Below, in pieces: positions 890 to 32,816 of a stretch of 42,320 nucleotides of DNA; the stretch's first letter is position 1; every line of letters starts with the position of its first letter. The translations under genes were made by a program, and so were the position numbers. Under the pieces are notes generated by a model. It was not told the origin of the DNA. It searched no databases and saw only the letters and a list, made by a program, of their open reading frames with translations. Origin of the DNA: a virus; the IMG/VR virus record IMGVR_UViG_3300022932_000020, positions 1 to 42,320 of that record, one strand, 5' to 3'.

Positions 890-1129
890 TTAGGCAATGC
901 CGAGCGCGGCGCGGTAGGTTTCCTGGATCGCATCCTGCTCGTCGCGGGCATGCTTCTCCAGCTTCCGCAGCCGAACCATCGCGCGCATGCCCTTGGGATC
1001 GAAGCCGATGCTCTTGGCCTCGTTGTAGACGTCGCGGATGTCGTCGGTCATCCCCTTCTTCTCTTCCTCAAGCCGCTCGATGCGCTCGATGAACAGGCGG
1101 AGTTGGTCGGCTGCGATGATGTCGGACAT
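890..1129 (-). CDS. gapR-like: GapR-like nucleoid protein (DUF2312)
   Basis: A 79-residue protein with the full DUF2312/GapR pattern: [20 protein letters not shown], then [19 protein letters not shown], then VRLRKLEKH. GapR of Caulobacter is a small coiled-coil protein that encircles overtwisted DNA ahead of replication forks and helps topoisomerases (established). A phage copy next to RusA, a DnaA-like protein and an HTH replication protein suggests a role in phage replication or topology control (inference). The family is essentially alphaproteobacterial, which supports the host assignment. The start is ATG 1129, preceded by an AGGAG-like stretch about 7 bases upstream. Confidence 0.9.
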
Positions 1130-1152
1130 GGTGATCTCCTGGGTGGAATTGG

Positions 1153-1692
1153 TTAGGCGCGGACGCCGGCAGCAGCAGCCCGAATGCGGACCTGCGCCAT
1201 GCTCAGGCTAAGCAGGCCCGGTTCGGGCTGGCGCTTGGGTCCGTGACGCAGGCCGTGCCGGAGCATCGCGCAGAGCAGGCTGTGAGAGCCCTGGCGGGCA
1301 TTGCGCTTCGTGGCGATCTCTTCGGCGGTTGCATGGTCCTGGTGGGCATCGATGTTGGTTCTGCGCAGCTTGGAGTAGCGGCAGGTGATGGCGGTGCGGG
1401 ACCGGCCCGGGTAATCCTCGAGACGCATCTCGCAGGCGCGCTGGCCAAGGCGCATCGCCGCCAGCATGCGCTCGTCCTCCTCCGCGGACCAATTTGGGCC
1501 GAGGTGGAAGCTCGACCCCTTCTTCCGCACGACAGGCTCGTTGGTTACGATGTCGCGCCGGTTGCGGATGGCGCTGATCGAGCGCCCTGGTATCTCGATA
1601 TCTCCGAGCGGAATGCGGTCTGCGATCTGCTGCAACAGCAATGCGTCCTCGTCCGCCGTCCAGAGGATCGCTTGGCGATGAATGGTGGCCAT
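1153..1692 (-). CDS. Myb/SANT-like DNA-binding protein with two repeats
   Basis: A 179-residue protein with two tandem Myb/SANT-like motifs. The first is at about residues 10-46 ([18 protein letters not shown] ... SISAIRNRR), the second at about 68-112 ([18 protein letters not shown] ... [14 protein letters not shown]). Both have the W-x-x-E-D-x-x-L opening and a basic third helix. This fold binds DNA in GcrA-like and phage regulators; the target here is unknown. The C-terminal third is basic and has no recognised domain. The start ATG overlaps the previous stop (TGATG), so it is translationally coupled. A transcription regulator of the phage is the simplest reading. Confidence 0.72.
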
Positions 1693-1946
1693 CAGAACAC
1701 CTCCGGGGTCAGGCCGGCGCGGGCCTGTTCGGCATCAAGCTCGGCGGCCTTGGCGGCGATCTCAGCGGCTTTGTTCGCTGCTTTCGTAGCGGCCGACCGG
1801 CGGCTGTGGTCGGAGCGACGCGCGCGGATCGCCTCGTTCTCCTGACGGGCAGCGATGGCGATGCCCATCCACTTCTTCTCGCCGGCCAGTGCCATGTCGC
1901 GCTGCTCGCGCATGCTGGGGCCGCGGTGGAACAGGTGGCGGATCAC
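1692..1946 (-). CDS. small alanine-rich helical protein
   Basis: An 84-residue unrecognised protein with GTG start at 1946 overlapping the upstream stop (GTGA). The first half is basic and the second half (about residues 50-78) is rich in Ala, Lys and Glu in a pattern suited to a long helix or coiled coil ([20 protein letters not shown]). No catalytic motif is visible. Its position between two regulators in the early-left operon suggests an accessory role, but no function can be assigned. Confidence 0.6.
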
Positions 1947-2422
1947 AGCCCCTTGCCCCGGCTGGAGAATGGGGTGAGGATCTGAATCATCTGATCCGCG
2001 TCATCCTCCAGTTCGCCGCAATCCTGGTGGCAATAGCGACCGTCCACAGCCTTGGCCGCAAACTCGGAAGCACCGGCCATTAGCGTTGCGACGACGGCGG
2101 CAGGGGCGTCGGGCGTCGGGTTAAGATCGCGTCCACCCTGTCCAATCGGACCAAGTAACTTGTTGGTAAACTCCACGCCGATGAACTGGCACAGCAGCAG
2201 CAGGCAGGATCCGCGCGGCCGGCGACGTTCGCCAACATTGGGCGTGATCCACTTGCTGACGGTGCTGGCGGTGATCAGGCGGTTGGTGCCGGTCTCGATA
2301 TCTTCGACCGAGAAGCGCTTGCCGCGCCCGATGAACAGCGTGAGGGCGCGATAGACTGCCTCATCCGCCGCATCGTCCGAAAGCAGGCCATCATCTATCA
2401 CAGACGTTGTGCGATGCGTCAT
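1943..2422 (-). CDS. putative phage regulator with helix-turn-helix
   Basis: A 159-residue protein. A likely helix-turn-helix lies at about residues 36-60, with ITASTVSKWITP as recognition-helix region, followed by a basic stretch GERRRPRG. The size and early-operon position resemble CII-like phage activators, but sequence similarity cannot be confirmed by eye. The C-terminal part carries CHQDCGELEDD, a possible metal site. Start ATG 2422 overlaps the stop of a 48-codon ORF. DNA binding is inferred, and the direction of regulation is unknown. Confidence 0.6.
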   Translation of the reverse strand: MTHRTTSVIDDGLLSDDAADEAVYRALTLFIGRGKRFSVEDIETGTNRLITASTVSKWITPNVGERRRPRGSCLLLLCQFIGVEFTNKLLGPIGQGGRDLNPTPDAPAAVVATLMAGASEFAAKAVDGRYCHQDCGELEDDADQMIQILTPFSSRGKGL

Positions 2423-2565
2423 GCAGAAGCGTCCTTATGAGCAGGGTGAACATCAAGATCGAAGACAGCCACCGGAACGACCTCGTGAAAGCCGAGGGTG
2501 AGGTCGCGGTCGGTGAACAGCACGCGCGGCTCAGTGGCGACGCGGATGGGCGGGGGTGTGGGCAT
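2419..2565 (-). CDS. 48-residue conserved-position small protein
   Basis: A 48-residue ORF (starts MPTPPPIRVATEPRVLFTD, ends DVHPAHKDASA) fits exactly between the Cro-like gene and the HTH regulator. Its ATG overlaps the upstream stop (TGATG) and its TGA overlaps the downstream ATG (ATGA). This double coupling is the main evidence that it is translated. No domain is recognised. Confidence 0.55.
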   Translation of the reverse strand: MPTPPPIRVATEPRVLFTDRDLTLGFHEVVPVAVFDLDVHPAHKDASA

Positions 2566-2774
2566 CAGGCTGCCCTTGCGCTGGCGCGGATCGCCGCGGC
2601 GGTCGCGAGCTCGTCCAGCGTAGCAACTCCGGCGTCAGCCAGCGGCCGCCAGTACGGCCCGGGGATGCTGTCGCGCTGCCTCCACGATCGGATTGTATGG
2701 ATGGACTGGGTGGTGACCACCTCTACGATCCGTGCTTCGCCGGCGGTGCTGATGATTTCGGCATGAGTTCGCAT
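2565..2774 (-). CDS. Cro-like helix-turn-helix regulator
   Basis: A 69-residue protein from ATG 2774 (MRTHAEIISTAGEARIVEVV). The stretch VVTTQSIHTIRSWRQRDSIP followed by GPYW matches the recognition helix and turn of Cro/YdaS-type phage regulators (SxHTxRSWRQRxxIPxxYW). A GTG at 2822 would extend the frame, but that would place both operator palindromes inside the gene, so 2774 is preferred. It is the first gene of the leftward operon and is divergent from the XRE repressor, the expected Cro position. It likely competes with the repressor at the shared TGCNTTNTGCA sites (inference). Confidence 0.75.
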   Translation of the reverse strand: MRTHAEIISTAGEARIVEVVTTQSIHTIRSWRQRDSIPGPYWRPLADAGVATLDELATAAAIRASARAA

Positions 2775-26053: not shown

Positions 26054-26640
26054 GCGCGTTCGGTCACGGTAAATTGCAACCCAACGGTGTGCGCCGCCTC
26101 AATCGTCCAGCTGAACTCATCACCGGATAGCCAACCCTCCAGAATCGGGGCGGCAAGGTTGACGACATCGCCGGCGGATAGCTGCGAGCGGAGCAGCGGC
26201 GTGATCGCGACCGTCGCGCTGCCCGAGCCGTTCGCCGTGACCTGCGCATCGGCGGAATAGAGGTAGCTGCGCCCGTTGTGCGTGACGGACAGCCACTGGC
26301 CTTCGCGGATGACATAGCCCGATGTTAGGCCCGTCAGCGGGATGCTGCTGCCGGCCGCGACGTTGGCGGCGACCTGCGGAGTACCGGGGTCGCCTATCAG
26401 CAGGCCGGGCTGCGGAAACGCGACGCGTCCTCCCTGCTGCTTCGCCCGTTTGAGGCGTGATGTCCAAAGCCGGCCCTCCGGCTCTACTACCTTGGGCGGG
26501 GCGTTGGCTGCGATCGCGTGACGGCTGCCGAGCCGGTCAAGACGTATAGTTACGCCTCCCAGCACACCAGCAAGCTCCCCGCCCCAGTCCATGAGGCTGG
26601 GCGAGGCGGACTGGATCTCCAGCGCGGTCAGATCGATCAT
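26050..26640 (-). CDS. distal tail-type structural protein
   Basis: A 196-residue beta-rich protein directly after the tape measure (overlap ATGA). TALEIQSASPSLMDWGGELA and GGVTIRLDRLGSRHAIAAN begin it; the C-terminal half has GSGSATVAITPLLRSQLSAG and AHTVGLQFTVTERA. Position corresponds to the lambda M/distal tail protein. Exact family not recognised. Confidence 0.65.
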   Translation of the reverse strand: MIDLTALEIQSASPSLMDWGGELAGVLGGVTIRLDRLGSRHAIAANAPPKVVEPEGRLWTSRLKRAKQQGGRVAFPQPGLLIGDPGTPQVAANVAAGSSIPLTGLTSGYVIREGQWLSVTHNGRSYLYSADAQVTANGSGSATVAITPLLRSQLSAGDVVNLAAPILEGWLSGDEFSWTIEAAHTVGLQFTVTERA

Positions 26641-28544
26641 AGCCGCGTCTTCGCGCGGCGCGCGGCGCGGCTCTCAACCTGGCCGACCGCGCCGAGCTGC
26701 GAAGCCTGCCCGATCGCGTTCATCTGATTGACCAAATCCTGCGTCAGCACCGCGCCCTCCAGATGGAAGTGGTTCGTCCCACCTCGGACGTTGTCGTTGT
26801 TCGGCTCAATCTTCAGCATCTCGCCGCGTCCGACCATCGCAGTGGGCATGCCGTTGATGCTCAGCAGGTTGCGGTCGACACCACCGAAGCCACCGATCGT
26901 CCCGCCGCGGGCGAACTTGGCAATCGGGGCGGTGCCGGACAGCGTCGCTGAATTGGCGACGATCGAAGCGTTGCTCCCCCCGCCGAACAAGCTGGTCAGG
27001 CTGCCCAAGCCACCGAATATCGATTTGCTGGTTGCGCCAAGTATCGCGCTCAAACCCCCGCCCTGCCCGCCGTTGTTGGTCAGCAGTCTCGACAGGATCT
27101 CGGAAACGGCGCGCTTGCCCATATCCTTCCACTGATCCCAGAAACTGCCGCCGGCGCCGTTCATCTCGCTTTCGAACAAATCCGCCAAGCCGCGCACCCG
27201 ATCCTGGCCTTCGTCGTAGAGCCGCGCCTGCTCGCGTCGCATGTCTTCCCAACCAGCGAGCTTCACGTCAGTCCGCGTGTCAATCGCATCGCGGATCGAG
27301 GAAAGCCCGTCACTTTCGTAAGCGTCGGCGGTCAGATCGCGGAGCGCATCGCCCATGTTGCGGATCGAAATGTCGGCAGCCTTAGCAGCCTCATCGACCT
27401 CATCGATTTCGGCCTTTGCCGCTTTATGGGAGCCGCTCTTCTTCCCACCGCCGCCGCCGACAATCCGGTTCAGGCCCGAAGCCTGTCGCCCACTGGCGAC
27501 CCCGCCCAGCGCCCCACGCACATCGAGCGGGTTGCTCTGTGCATCGAACAGGCTTCCTGCGCCCTTGCCGGTGCGCACCATGGCTTTGGGGTTTAGGATG
27601 CCATTGATCTCGGTGCGGAGATCGGACGCTTCTTGGAGGGCGTCGCGCTTGTCAGTTTCCGAAATGAACAGGCCAGGCAGACCACGCAGGCGGCTTTCCG
27701 CGTTGTTCGCCTTCTGCTCTAAGACGAATACTCGCCAGGCCTTCGCGGCCTGGCCAGCCTTGTCAATCAGCCAGACAAGCGCATCGCCGAGCTGGAGAAT
27801 GGCCCCGGCGTTATCAGCGACAACACCAGCGATCTTGGCTTCAAGAACCTGCTTTACAGCAGAAAGCTTGTCCGCTGCATCGTCCGCCCGCTGGATCAGG
27901 TCGGGCGATAGCACCACGCCTGCCTTTTCGGCAGCCGCGGCAAGTTCGTTAATTGCCTTGCTGCCACCCGACAGGAGCGTGTCGAGCTTCTGTCCGGTCT
28001 TGCCGAAAAGCTCGACCTCTATGCGTGCGCGAGTGGCTGGATCCTTGATTTGAGCAAGCGCGTCCGCAAGCTGCGGCAGAATGTCGCTCGTCGCGCGGAT
28101 ATTGCCGCCTGCGTCGCGAACGTTGATGCCGAGATCGTTGAAGGTGGTCGCCTGCTTCTTGGCGCCATCCGCGGCCTGGCCGATCGACAGGCTGAGCTTG
28201 GACAGTCCTTTGTCCATCTCTTCCTGCGAGACGCCAACCTGCGAGGCCGCGTAACGGTAGACTTGGAGATCCTTGGTCGTCACCGAAAGCTGCTGCGCGA
28301 CCTCACCAAGCGACGACGCGTAATCAAGCGCGTTCTTGCCTGCGGCTACGATGGCGCCGGCGCTCAGGGTGATCCCGAAAAGTCCGAGGGCGTTGTTCGC
28401 GGAGAGTAGCCCGCCGCGCAGATTCTTGCCGATCGTGTCGCCAAGCTGGCGGGCGCGCTTCTCGGCGGATGTGGCGCCGCGCTCGAACGTCGCGGTGTCC
28501 AGCCCCAGCGCGACGCGCAAGGAGCCAATGATGGATGCTGCCAT
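26637..28544 (-). CDS. tail tape-measure protein
   Basis: A 635-residue protein from ATG 28544. The start SIIGSLRVALGLDTATFERG is typical of tape-measure proteins (xxGxLRVxLGLDTAxFxxG). Long helical regions follow, one hydrophobic area near residues 45-70 (LGLFGITLSAGAIVAAGKN), and a Gly-rich distal part. It sets tail length and is ejected into the host (established for the family). At roughly 0.15 nm per residue, a tail near 95 nm would be expected. The frame upstream of 28544 is not used. Confidence 0.9.
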   Translation of the reverse strand: MAASIIGSLRVALGLDTATFERGATSAEKRARQLGDTIGKNLRGGLLSANNALGLFGITLSAGAIVAAGKNALDYASSLGEVAQQLSVTTKDLQVYRYAASQVGVSQEEMDKGLSKLSLSIGQAADGAKKQATTFNDLGINVRDAGGNIRATSDILPQLADALAQIKDPATRARIEVELFGKTGQKLDTLLSGGSKAINELAAAAEKAGVVLSPDLIQRADDAADKLSAVKQVLEAKIAGVVADNAGAILQLGDALVWLIDKAGQAAKAWRVFVLEQKANNAESRLRGLPGLFISETDKRDALQEASDLRTEINGILNPKAMVRTGKGAGSLFDAQSNPLDVRGALGGVASGRQASGLNRIVGGGGGKKSGSHKAAKAEIDEVDEAAKAADISIRNMGDALRDLTADAYESDGLSSIRDAIDTRTDVKLAGWEDMRREQARLYDEGQDRVRGLADLFESEMNGAGGSFWDQWKDMGKRAVSEILSRLLTNNGGQGGGLSAILGATSKSIFGGLGSLTSLFGGGSNASIVANSATLSGTAPIAKFARGGTIGGFGGVDRNLLSINGMPTAMVGRGEMLKIEPNNDNVRGGTNHFHLEGAVLTQDLVNQMNAIGQASQLGAVGQVESRAARRAKTRL

Positions 28545-28552
28545 GCTGCCCC

Positions 28553-29056
28553 CTACTTCTGTGTCTTGGCGAGCTTCTTTGCCAGCCGTGCGGCGGTCTT
28601 TTCGATTTCGGCACCAAGCTCTGCAGCGATGATGTCGAGCGCTCGAAACTTGAGCGCATCCCATGCCGGACGGATGAACGGATGCGCGGCGATCTGCGAA
28701 GTGCCACCCTCGATCAGCCGGCTGATCGGATCGCGCGTGCCTACGTAGACCTCTGTCTCGCTCTTGCCGGCCTTGCGCGCCTGCCGGGCCTGCGAGCGAG
28801 TGAGCCGCGTGCCGATCTGCACCAACGCTTCGGCTGTACCCGGCCGCCGGATGCGCTTGGCATCGCCTCGGCCGTAGGTGACGACCTTTTCCGGATCGCT
28901 CCGCACTGGCGCGGCTTGCTCGGCCATTTCCTGGATGGGCGTGCCAGCCTTGATCAGCACGCGCCGAGCGGTGGCTTTGCCGGTAGCTTTCGGCAGTTCA
29001 GCGAGCGCCGCACCGAGCTCTTTGAAGCCCGTCAGCTTGATGACCTCTTTCGGCAT
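28553..29056 (-). CDS. HK97 gp10-like protein
   Basis: A 167-residue protein from ATG 29056 (TGATG overlap with the chaperone). LTGFKELGAALAELPKATGK at the N-terminus and AHPFIRPAWDALKFRALDII at the C-terminus are the two conserved ends of HK97-gp10-type tail-completion proteins. It is unusual here in lying after the tail chaperones, directly before the tape measure, instead of among the connector genes. Confidence 0.85.
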   Translation of the reverse strand: MPKEVIKLTGFKELGAALAELPKATGKATARRVLIKAGTPIQEMAEQAAPVRSDPEKVVTYGRGDAKRIRRPGTAEALVQIGTRLTRSQARQARKAGKSETEVYVGTRDPISRLIEGGTSQIAAHPFIRPAWDALKFRALDIIAAELGAEIEKTAARLAKKLAKTQK

Positions 29057-29367
29057 CAGTGCTTCGTTGCCTCCGCCCATGCTCGCATCGCCGTCAGCAT
29101 GTCACCCGGCGCCTGGGGCGCGGGCGCTCGCTCAGCAGAAATCATCAGTTTGTCCGGCGATTTCGGAAACGTCTTCATCAGCGGCAGTGCTGCAATGTGC
29201 CACGCCAGCATCATTGCCTCGTTGTGGCGCTGCTCAGCGGCGGCGACACGACCTTCCATAATGGCGACGAATGTGCGCGGGGTCTGCCGCCAGAACGCAT
29301 CAGGGTCGAAGCCTTCCGCGCTCCACCGGCTCAGCCAGCCGAGCCAGTCCCAGTCGTCGCCTCGGGA
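29056..29367 (-). CDS. tail chaperone T part, made by -1 frameshift from the G part
   Basis: The -1 frame from the slippery site to the stop at 29058-29056 reads SRGDDWDWLGWLSRWSAEGF, DPDAFWRQTPRTFVAIMEGR and AEQRHNEAMMLAWHIAAL. The conserved-looking GFxPDxFWxxTPR block lies upstream of the only internal ATG (29259), so starting there would discard it. The complete protein should be the fusion from 29693. G-T fusion chaperones guide tail-tube assembly around the tape measure (established in lambda). The distal part is Pro/Ala-rich, then helical. Confidence 0.8.
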   Translation of the reverse strand, partial: SRGDDWDWLGWLSRWSAEGFDPDAFWRQTPRTFVAIMEGRVAAAEQRHNEAMMLAWHIAALPLMKTFPKSPDKLMISAERAPAPQAPGDMLTAMRAWAEATKH

Positions 29368-29693
29368 GGGTTTGCGTCGGCTGCCGTGCCCTTATGCGCC
29401 GGCAATGCCGCAATAAGCGCTTTCCGCATCGCTGCCGACGCGACCGCCGCTCCAGCCTCTACGATTATCTCGGCCGCGCGGAGCGGCACCAGATCAGGGT
29501 GGTCGCGCTTCAGACCTGCCCAGATTATCGCGCGCAGCGCCTTCCAGTTGCCGCTGTCCAGCTTCGCCAACAGAACAGGCATGTCGAACTCGGACAACTC
29601 TTCGGCTTTGATGAGAGCCTCAATATCGAGCGAGAGAGTGTATTCGGTATCGCCGGCCTTAAAGGTGGCCTCACCCCGGAATGGGTTTGCCAT
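29331..29693 (-). CDS. tail assembly chaperone G-like protein
   Basis: A 120-residue protein from ATG 29693, coupled to the tail-tube stop by TGATG. ANPFRGEATFKAGDTEYTLS, then LDIEALIKAEELSEFDMPVL matches the GTA/phage tail chaperone type found between tail tube and tape measure. It ends shortly after a slippery heptamer; a fraction of ribosomes should read on into the T part. The unshifted product has a disordered Ala/Pro/Gly tail. Confidence 0.8.
   Translation of the reverse strand: MANPFRGEATFKAGDTEYTLSLDIEALIKAEELSEFDMPVLLAKLDSGNWKALRAIIWAGLKRDHPDLVPLRAAEIIVEAGAAVASAAMRKALIAALPAHKGTAADANPPEATTGTGSAG
29367..29373 (-). promoter_or_regulatory. programmed -1 ribosomal frameshift site AAACCCT
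   Basis: Read on the minus strand as A AAC CCT in the G frame, a full X-XXY-YYZ heptamer. Slipping one base back re-pairs AAC on AAA and CCT on CCC. It lies 34 bases before the G-frame stop (29333-29331) and leads directly into the T frame. Similar sites serve the tail chaperones of lambda and many siphoviruses; the efficiency here is unknown. Confidence 0.7.
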
Positions 29694-30124
29694 CACGGAG
29701 CAACCGCGGATTCGGTGATCTCGCCGACCCACTTCACCGTCAGCGTGCCCGTGCGCTTGTCCATCATCGGGTTCGTGCGCTTGAAGTCGCGCACCAGCAC
29801 CTTGCCGACGAACTGACGCTTGCCGGCGCCGACCGGGATGACGATCTTGAAGTCGCAGGTCTTGTTCTTGGCGCTCAGGCACAGCGTCTCGGTGGCGCTG
29901 CCGGGGATCCAGTTCATCTCGAGATCCGCCTCCTCGCCGTCCGCCAGCGGCTCGGCGATGTAATCCTTGAAGCCCACCGTCTTCATGTGGCTGGCATCGA
30001 TCAGCCCGGTGGTGCCGTTCGGGACGGGAATGTTCGTCACCTCGCCCAGCATGGTCAGGGTGCCGGTGGTTCCGGGCTTGAGCCAGAACTCGCTGCCAAT
30101 GCCCGTTTCGACTTCGGTCGTCAT
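29693..30124 (-). CDS. major tail tube protein
   Basis: A 143-residue beta-rich protein: VETGIGSEFWLKPGTTGTLT, GEVTNIPVPNGTTGLIDASH, EADLEMNWIPGSATETL and KVLVRDFKRTNPMMDKRTGT. Layout and position between tail-completion and chaperone genes fit the siphovirus tail tube family (lambda V N-domain-like). It polymerises around the tape measure to form the tail tube. AGGAGG lies upstream of ATG 30124. Confidence 0.85.
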   Translation of the reverse strand: MTTEVETGIGSEFWLKPGTTGTLTMLGEVTNIPVPNGTTGLIDASHMKTVGFKDYIAEPLADGEEADLEMNWIPGSATETLCLSAKNKTCDFKIVIPVGAGKRQFVGKVLVRDFKRTNPMMDKRTGTLTVKWVGEITESAVAP

Positions 30125-31655: not shown

Positions 31656-32816
31656 ATGAAGATGGTCACGGTCGCGCGCGATCTGGGTGAACACCCCGAT
31701 CAGCCAGCAGTGCGCATTCGAAGCCTAGATGGATTGCGCGGCGTCGCCGCCGTGGTCGTGGTCTTCTACCATCTGTGCTTGCTGTTCCCGCTCGGGTGGG
31801 CGGCCTACCTTAAAGAACCCAGCTCGCCACTATTCAACGTCCTGCTCCGCAGTCCCGGCAGCATCCTGACCGCCGGACGTCCTGCCGTGTACGTCTTCTT
31901 CGTGCTGAGTGGGTTCGTTCTCGCATACAGCTTCGTCGGGACTGATGGGCAGCGCTACCGGCCCTATCTCATTAAGCGGATCTGCCGGATCTGGCTTCCG
32001 TTCACAGCAGCGATCCTTGGCAGCGCCTTGCTCTACCTGCTGTTCGATGGAGGCCACGTTCCCACCGCGAGCAGCTGGTTCAACGATCTGTCCTGGAACC
32101 CACCTCTAAGCGTGAGCAAGGTCGTTGAACACCTTGCGATGACCGGCGGCGCCGAGGATCTCGACAATGTCATGTGGAGCCTCGTTCACGAGATGAGGAT
32201 CTCGATCGTGTTCCCGCTTCTCGTGGCGGCCTATCTGCGCTTTCCCAAGTTCACCATCCTGAGCGGCCTGGCACTTTCGGTTATCTGCATCGTCGCCAAG
32301 GCCCGCATCGACAGCCCTGTCGGAGACTCGATCCTGGAGACCGGCCGTTATTCCTACCTGTTCGTTCTCGGCATCGGCCTGTCTCAAGAGCGCGCCAGGA
32401 TCTCGGCAGCTGTGTCGCGGCTGCCCGCCGCTGTCGTAGCGATGGCGTGGATCGCCGTGTGCCTTCTTCTGACCAGCCGCATGATGCTTCCGAACAATGG
32501 CGGCAAGTTGCTCTGGCTGTTTGGCGAGTTCCCGGTCGGCCTCGGCGCTGCGCTCGCCGTTGCGCTGGTGCTCCGCCGCGGCGGGACCGAACGTCTGTTC
32601 GCAAATCGGATGACGCTTTGGCTCGGCGGCGTCTCGTACAGCCTATACCTGGTTCACGTGCCTATCATCCTGCTGGTCGGCAGCGTCGCCGGGGCCATCT
32701 ACCCAGCACTGGTTCCTGTCTGCTTTGCACTGGCAATCGCCGCGGCGTGGCTCTTTCACAAGCTGGTCGAGAAGAAGGCGCAGGATGTCGGTCGTAGGCT
32801 CGTCGCTCGGGCGTGA
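31656..32816 (+). CDS. acyltransferase-3 family membrane protein (O-antigen acetylase type)
   Basis: A 386-residue protein. The motif IRSLDGLRGVAAVVVVFYHL (about residues 21-40, with His39) is the N-terminal signature of the acyltransferase-3 family; the FVLSGFVLAYSF segment and about ten membrane spans follow, ending in a basic tail. Members transfer acetyl groups to surface polysaccharides; phage-encoded ones cause serotype conversion and block superinfection (established for several phages). It runs opposite to the surrounding late genes and is bounded by direct repeats, so it is a moron expressed in the lysogen (inference). Confidence 0.88.
   Translation: MKMVTVARDLGEHPDQPAVRIRSLDGLRGVAAVVVVFYHLCLLFPLGWAAYLKEPSSPLFNVLLRSPGSILTAGRPAVYVFFVLSGFVLAYSFVGTDGQRYRPYLIKRICRIWLPFTAAILGSALLYLLFDGGHVPTASSWFNDLSWNPPLSVSKVVEHLAMTGGAEDLDNVMWSLVHEMRISIVFPLLVAAYLRFPKFTILSGLALSVICIVAKARIDSPVGDSILETGRYSYLFVLGIGLSQERARISAAVSRLPAAVVAMAWIAVCLLLTSRMMLPNNGGKLLWLFGEFPVGLGAALAVALVLRRGGTERLFANRMTLWLGGVSYSLYLVHVPIILLVGSVAGAIYPALVPVCFALAIAAAWLFHKLVEKKAQDVGRRLVARA

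Follow-up and report, generated by a model that had tools for sequence, protein, structure and literature searches.

A probable lambda-type programmed -1 frameshift in the tail assembly chaperone genes of a tailed phage, and its counterparts among relatives

The tail module and its reading frames

The window, by which we mean the entire stretch of DNA analysed, covers an IMG/VR virus record of 42320 bases from end to end, and its terminase, portal and HK97-type capsid genes mark it as a tailed phage. The tail module lies on the minus strand in the order connector, head completion, tail completion, major tail protein, G, T, HK97-gp10-like gene and tape measure. The features referred to below are the following:

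29693..30124, minus strand: major tail protein gene, upstream of G (phrog_158, 5.6e-14)
29331..29693, minus strand: G, a tail assembly chaperone of 120 aa (ATG 29693, TGA 29333-29331)
29367..29373, minus strand: slippery heptamer A_AAC_CCT, in the X_XXY_YYZ phase of G with both frames open
29056..29391, minus strand: T frame, -1 relative to G, open from 29391 (TAA 29394-29392) to TGA 29058-29056
29344..29352, minus strand: WDW in the T frame, before the G stop, so that this DNA is doubly coding
29314..29364, minus strand: possible downstream RNA structure (51 nt, -22 kcal/mol, z -1.91, 7 of 200 shuffles as stable)
29331..29334, minus strand: CTGA at the G stop, with near-cognate CTG 29334 in the T frame, upstream of the GFDPDAFWRQTPR block
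29275..29313, minus strand: GFDPDAFWRQTPR, the most conserved block of T (GFDPDAFW), upstream of the first T-frame ATG
28553..29056, minus strand: HK97-gp10-like gene (TIGR01725, 5.7e-09, over the cut-off; phrog_5, 1.7e-12)
26637..28664, minus strand: tape measure protein gene, ORF as listed (phrog_8462, 7e-35)

The major tail protein gene scores slightly under the cut-off of PF16461; its stop is overlapped by the start of G as TGATG, and the T stop is overlapped in the same form, TGATG, by the ATG of the HK97-gp10-like gene at 29056. The first 40 codons of the listed tape measure ORF, from ATG 28664 (28545-28664, minus strand), lie for the most part over the HK97-gp10-like gene, which is read in a different frame, and the true tape measure start is probably the ATG of MAASIIGSL rather than ATG 28664. 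The HK97-gp10-like gene itself lies between T and the tape measure in the window and upstream of the major tail protein in locus L019, while its order in locus L030 is seemingly that of the window. Within the structural region, on the opposite strand (31656-32816, plus), there is an acyltransferase gene (PF01757, 4.3e-35), which is a candidate lysogenic-conversion gene.

The G protein scores over the curated cut-off for PF11836 Phage_TAC_11 (GTA gp10; 2.1e-08, 34.6 bits vs 27.8) and matches phrog_2115, a tail protein family, at 1.8e-13. Its AlphaFold model (pLDDT 86.9) is weakly consistent with solved tail assembly chaperone folds, the best VIA rows including the HK97 chaperone 2ob9 (a weak match at Z 4.9, 4.4 A over 85 residues) and p2 ORF12 3d8l (Z 3.4, tied with an unrelated row at Z 3.3), and Foldseek with this model returned no match at E <= 0.001. 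TAL effector repeats, returned when the G alignment was searched as a profile against solved structures, were rejected as a repeat artefact, as 0 stretches passed alone. The T frame matches phrog_19318 (5.4e-15), and its scores against TIGR02216 (GTA rcc01693; 2.3e-04, 21.3 vs 56.1) and PF09550 Phage_TAC_6 (0.013, 16.4 vs 23.4) both fall below the curated cut-offs and suggest distant resemblance only. The T model is predicted to be helical (pLDDT 84.7); the profile search of solved structures with T gave no match, and Foldseek of T in BFVD gave nothing significant (best E 0.12).

The initial annotation had proposed that a heptamer A AAC CCT in the G frame at 29373-29367 lets ribosomes pass into a -1 frame open to 29056, and both the phase of the heptamer and the open frame, which extends over 29391-29056, were confirmed. 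Thirty-three bases separate the heptamer from the G stop codon. Coding after the slip would comprise 29367-29056, that is 103 aa plus the stop, and the predicted GT fusion has 212 aa with the junction ADANP-SRGDD. Before 29259 the T frame holds no ATG, GTG or TTG, and the GFDPDAFWRQTPR block is thus without an ordinary start; the annotation had correctly placed the block upstream of ATG 29259, yet this ATG is the first of seven in the T frame and not the only internal one. The ATG, GTG or TTG that overlaps the G stop in a stand-alone T of the gene transfer agent (GTA) type is represented in the window by CTG.

Sampling of relatives

A lone heptamer in such an overlap is poor evidence and proves little, and relatives were therefore collected with the T-frame protein. 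Family searches used this protein only, and alignment rows began at or near the slip site. They yielded 14 virus contigs and 3 genome contigs, and 3 of 7 phage records were used. Prophages with phrog_19318 were found in 2 of 385 genomes of the class of genome G002 and in 17 of 397 of its family, further prophages in 22 of 390 genomes of the family of genome G001 and in 3 of 14 of one genus, and the GTA-type model TIGR02216 in 11 of 96 genomes; this genome sampling covers alphaproteobacterial groups reached from a few starting loci. The nearest relative over T, with about 51% protein identity, is a fragment (L007). Searches for closer relatives with the G protein matched 10 stretches in virus contigs, none of them confirmed, and nothing in phage records, and the search with the major tail protein likewise gave none.

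Altogether 78 places including the window were examined, of which 72 had both the FW anchor and G, 5 lacked the FW anchor and 1 had no detectable G. The T frame is -1 relative to G in 69 of the 72 loci; of the other three, two have T in the frame of G and one has it in +1. Setting aside 12 of the 69 as GTA-like left 57 phage-type loci in 46 clusters at about 85% DNA identity. Sites were counted in a stretch 20-40 residues before FW with both frames open (758 codon positions). The range of 20-40 aa, the choice of NNNCCCT as a motif and the make-up of the GTA-like set were fixed only after the loci had been viewed, and they were checked with counts in the wrong phases and with two loci found through the HK97-gp10-like gene.

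Slip sites in the phage-type clusters

An in-phase XXXYYYZ heptamer occurs in 31 of the 46 clusters, a count that includes the doubtful CCCCCCG (L019) and TTTCCCG (L060), which are poor or atypical candidates, vs 3 and 2 clusters in the wrong phases. More specific motifs are confined to the one phase: GGGAAAN is found in phase in 17 clusters and NNNCCCT in 26, and both are absent from the other two phases (0 and 0). In the bodies of G genes, XXXYYYZ occurs 8 times per 4344 codons and C_CCT likewise 8 times, from which about 1.4 would be expected in the site stretch. The commonest sites are GGGAAAC (10), GCGCCCT (7), AAACCCT (6), GGGAAAG (6), GGACCCT (4) and GGGCCCT (3). AAACCCT itself stands in the matching role in L001, L002, L007, L027 and L073, and also in L090, one of the two held-out loci reached through the HK97-gp10-like gene; there it lies 61 nt before the G stop, and the other, L091, has GGGAAAG 25 nt before it, with T in -1 in both. 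Conservation across the family puts the window heptamer far above chance, and what the initial annotation had put forward as a check, conservation of heptamer and -1 frame in homologous tail modules, is borne out by these counts and by the 69 of 72 loci with T in -1. The reading in which the T frame survives as a mere remnant, or is used only from ATG 29259 onwards, with the heptamer there by chance, can point to the ease with which a single heptamer arises in a short overlap and to a second in-phase AAACCCA at 29688-29682, where the T frame is soon closed, but it is most improbable given the conserved block and frame and the phase bias of the sites.

XXXYYYZ is absent in 15 of the 46 clusters. 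The initial annotation had named loss of the heptamer in close relatives keeping T as evidence against frameshifting, yet all 15 retain a slip-like site: 13 carry NNC_CCT in equal phase and place, and the remaining two (L020, L070) have C_CCC before the G stop. On the tree of T, at least 12 changes are counted between GGGAAA/AAAAAA-type and CCCT-type sites, although the tree is poor, with 3 of 44 branches well supported, and the count omits 'none', CCCCCCG, TTTCCCG and the fusion. Distant relatives very probably keep frameshifting while swapping the exact slip sequence. In close pairs from elsewhere in the family, site bases are identical at 74 of 84 positions (88%) vs 802 of 1080 in the flanks (74%), a modest difference based on 12 of 13 pairs (L070/L081 was omitted because the rule identifies no site in it; two pairs misaligned at the site, L021/L084 and L005/L011, were kept in the totals).

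Signals around the site are less distinct. The initial annotation had suggested RNA structure prediction downstream, and the outcome is weak: the 51 nt fold has a z of -1.91, but folding of 83 nt downstream of the heptamer gives -0.20. Over 44 clusters the mean downstream z is -0.69 vs -0.20 in a control window, and a conserved RNA structure downstream of the site, sought in the window and these 44 clusters, was not established. Shine-Dalgarno-like 4-mers upstream of the site occur in 15 of 44 clusters (0 to 12 in controls), an enrichment that is suggestive only, and the 24 bases before the window heptamer contain none.

Frameshifting and its alternatives

From these comparisons we consider it highly likely that G and T are joined by a programmed -1 ribosomal frameshift of the lambda G/GT type. 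Most ribosomes would translate G as far as the stop codon at 29333-29331 and release the 120-aa chaperone, while a minority, with tRNA-Asn and tRNA-Pro on AAC CCT, would slip one base back onto AAA CCC and resume in the -1 frame from TCC, yielding the 212-aa fusion ADANP-SRGDDWDW.... By analogy with lambda, G would coat the tape measure protein and T would recruit major tail protein subunits. We infer the slippage itself, its frequency and the role of the fusion.

One variant compatible with frameshifting holds that tRNA-Pro alone slips, from CCT to CCC, so that the working element is C_CCT and not the whole AAACCCT. A tRNA-Pro with anticodon GGG would exchange a G-U for a G-C pair on moving from CCU to CCC, by the codon rules. 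Single-tRNA slippage is proposed at the non-XXX sites because the Arg, Asp or Ser tRNAs at the codon before would pair poorly in the new frame, and it draws on the 13 of 15 clusters with NNC_CCT at the matching place and phase, on the strict phase of NNNCCCT (26 of 46, other phases 0) and on variation among near relatives in the base before CGCCCT (GCGCCCT/CCGCCCT in L063/L064 and L068/L069). For the window this variant is nevertheless rather unlikely, as its full XXXYYYZ makes tandem slippage possible, and the non-XXX sites favour few preceding codons (CGC, GAC, TCC), so the preceding codon may matter.

The frame relation alone does not decide between frameshifting and coupled initiation, because a start-stop overlap of the ATGA type also puts T in -1. 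Termination and reinitiation, as in gene transfer agents, would produce a separate T protein from CTG 29334 at the G stop (CTGA). The window CTG lies in the T frame and in the right place, CTG is found at the G stop in 13 of the 46 phage-type clusters, and GTA-like relatives have ATG, GTG or TTG there in 11 of 14 loci. The other 33 clusters, however, have another codon at this position (CTA 12, GTA 11, ATA 5, TTA 4, ATG 1), the single ATG (L028) being the sole common start, and the neighbouring operon junctions use TGATG with a real ATG. Tryptophans of the T frame that precede the G stop are conserved (FW-19 in 22 of 34 clusters, FW-17 in 22 of 32), and in 7 of the 46 clusters G ends only at FW or past it, where reinitiation after the stop would be unable to make the GFDPDAFWRQTPR block. 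With the GTA-like loci set aside beforehand, ATG, GTG or TTG is found in the T frame 17-45 aa before FW in 0 of 46 clusters, and in 26 of 46 the open T frame has none at all ahead of FW. Reinitiation at the window CTG is accordingly very improbable. The initial annotation had stated that the conserved part of T can only be made by frameshifting; the relatives support frameshifting as the route, while the near-cognate CTG upstream of the block qualifies the word 'only'. The separate T start that it had held to speak against frameshifting is met in 0 of 46 phage-type clusters, but does exist in those 11 of 14 more distant GTA-like loci.

Other arrangements among relatives

The GTA-like set comprises 20 loci, 14 with a located G, was assembled by hand once the loci had been inspected and does not include R. 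capsulatus itself. Most of these loci start T at an ATG, GTG or TTG overlapping the G stop and are without a slip site, the reverse of the window, and T seems to be made by coupled initiation rather than frameshifting in the gene transfer agent relatives. In four of them (L050, L055, L077, L078), T starts at an ATG overlapping the G stop as ATGA. The prophage-like locus L030 has G and T fused in one frame (1123-1818, plus strand, 231 codons) and a second, free G-like gene (2123-2575, plus strand, E 1.8e-17) before the tape measure gene, with what by eye resembles an HK97-gp10-like gene between the two. A fusion together with a free G is the arrangement expected if tails need both G and GT, and the frameshift has possibly been replaced here by gene duplication; the fusion may also be an assembly or sequencing slip. 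In the deposited phages Kronos (L019:2115-2848) and Rivra (L020:2172-2842), T is annotated on its own as a hypothetical protein, and the start listed for it omits part of the open T frame upstream.

Comparison with known systems

The lambda G/GT tail assembly chaperones were reportedly treated by Xu, Hendrix and Duda in 2004. The window resembles lambda in having a small chaperone gene with an overlapping second ORF, T in -1, between the major tail protein and the tape measure, an in-phase slippery heptamer shortly before the G stop with both frames open, and no independent T start, CTG 29334 staying as a near-cognate codon. The lambda heptamer is GGGAAAG. The window differs in having AAACCCT, in the HK97-gp10-type gene that intervenes between T and the tape measure, and in proteins of the PF11836/phrog_19318 kind, and its frameshift is a predicted one. 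As described in PMC5009743, gpG forms a coat on the tape measure protein and gpGT uses its T domain to bind the major tail protein; the paper also describes frameshifting between G and T as widely conserved. This type of frameshift is already known as a mechanism, to which the window adds another predicted case. For an HK97-like cluster, PMC3711429 gives 6% and 7% as measured for two tail chaperone genes.

Among alphaproteobacterial phages, the Caulobacter phages phiCbK and Colossus have chaperones preceding the tape measure with predicted sites AAAAAAC and GGGAAAC, as described in PMC3556154; compared by this description, they share with the window a predicted -1 frameshift at the matching place in the tail module and differ in their heptamers. 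In RcGTA the tail chaperones are g10 and g10.5 (PMC11409702); PF11836 is common to the window G and g10, and the window T resembles the rcc01693 family (TIGR02216) below the cut-off. The PRFect paper (PMC10885494), whose motifs were trained on SEA-PHAGES genomes, states that most annotated overlaps have no XXXYYYZ and proposes further backward motifs, including 'twoonefour'. The window falls into its 'threethree' (XXXYYYZ) class, and its eight backward motifs, judged by their names, contain no bare NNC_CCT such as GGACCCT or CCGCCCT. Among the matches listed by searches of the open-access PMC literature there was no paper on AAACCCT, GGGCCCT or NNC_CCT tail sites.

Implications

A broader proposal, which we regard as evenly balanced between true and false, is that in the tail chaperones of phages and prophages whose hosts are of Caulobacter or Sphingomonas type NNC_CCU without XXX is itself a -1 slippery site acting through tRNA-Pro, and that it has repeatedly replaced GGGAAA-type sites at one fixed place. 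The AAACCCT of the window would then be a version that also satisfies XXXYYYZ, the GTA relatives would have swapped the frameshift for start-stop coupling, and in one prophage an in-frame fusion, together with a second, free G, would have taken the place of the frameshift.

The locus provides a checked reference point from which the missing T half of the tail chaperone can be annotated in deposited phages such as Kronos and Rivra, where it is split or called hypothetical. Its relatives form a natural comparison set in which the two proteins are apparently linked through tandem slippage at Lys or Asn codons, through Pro-codon sites lacking XXX, or through an in-frame fusion with a second G, or are kept separate with a coupled start. 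With this set two questions become testable: whether C_CCU read by tRNA-Pro is enough by itself for a programmed -1 shift, and whether tails require the covalent GT for their assembly or only the presence of both parts.
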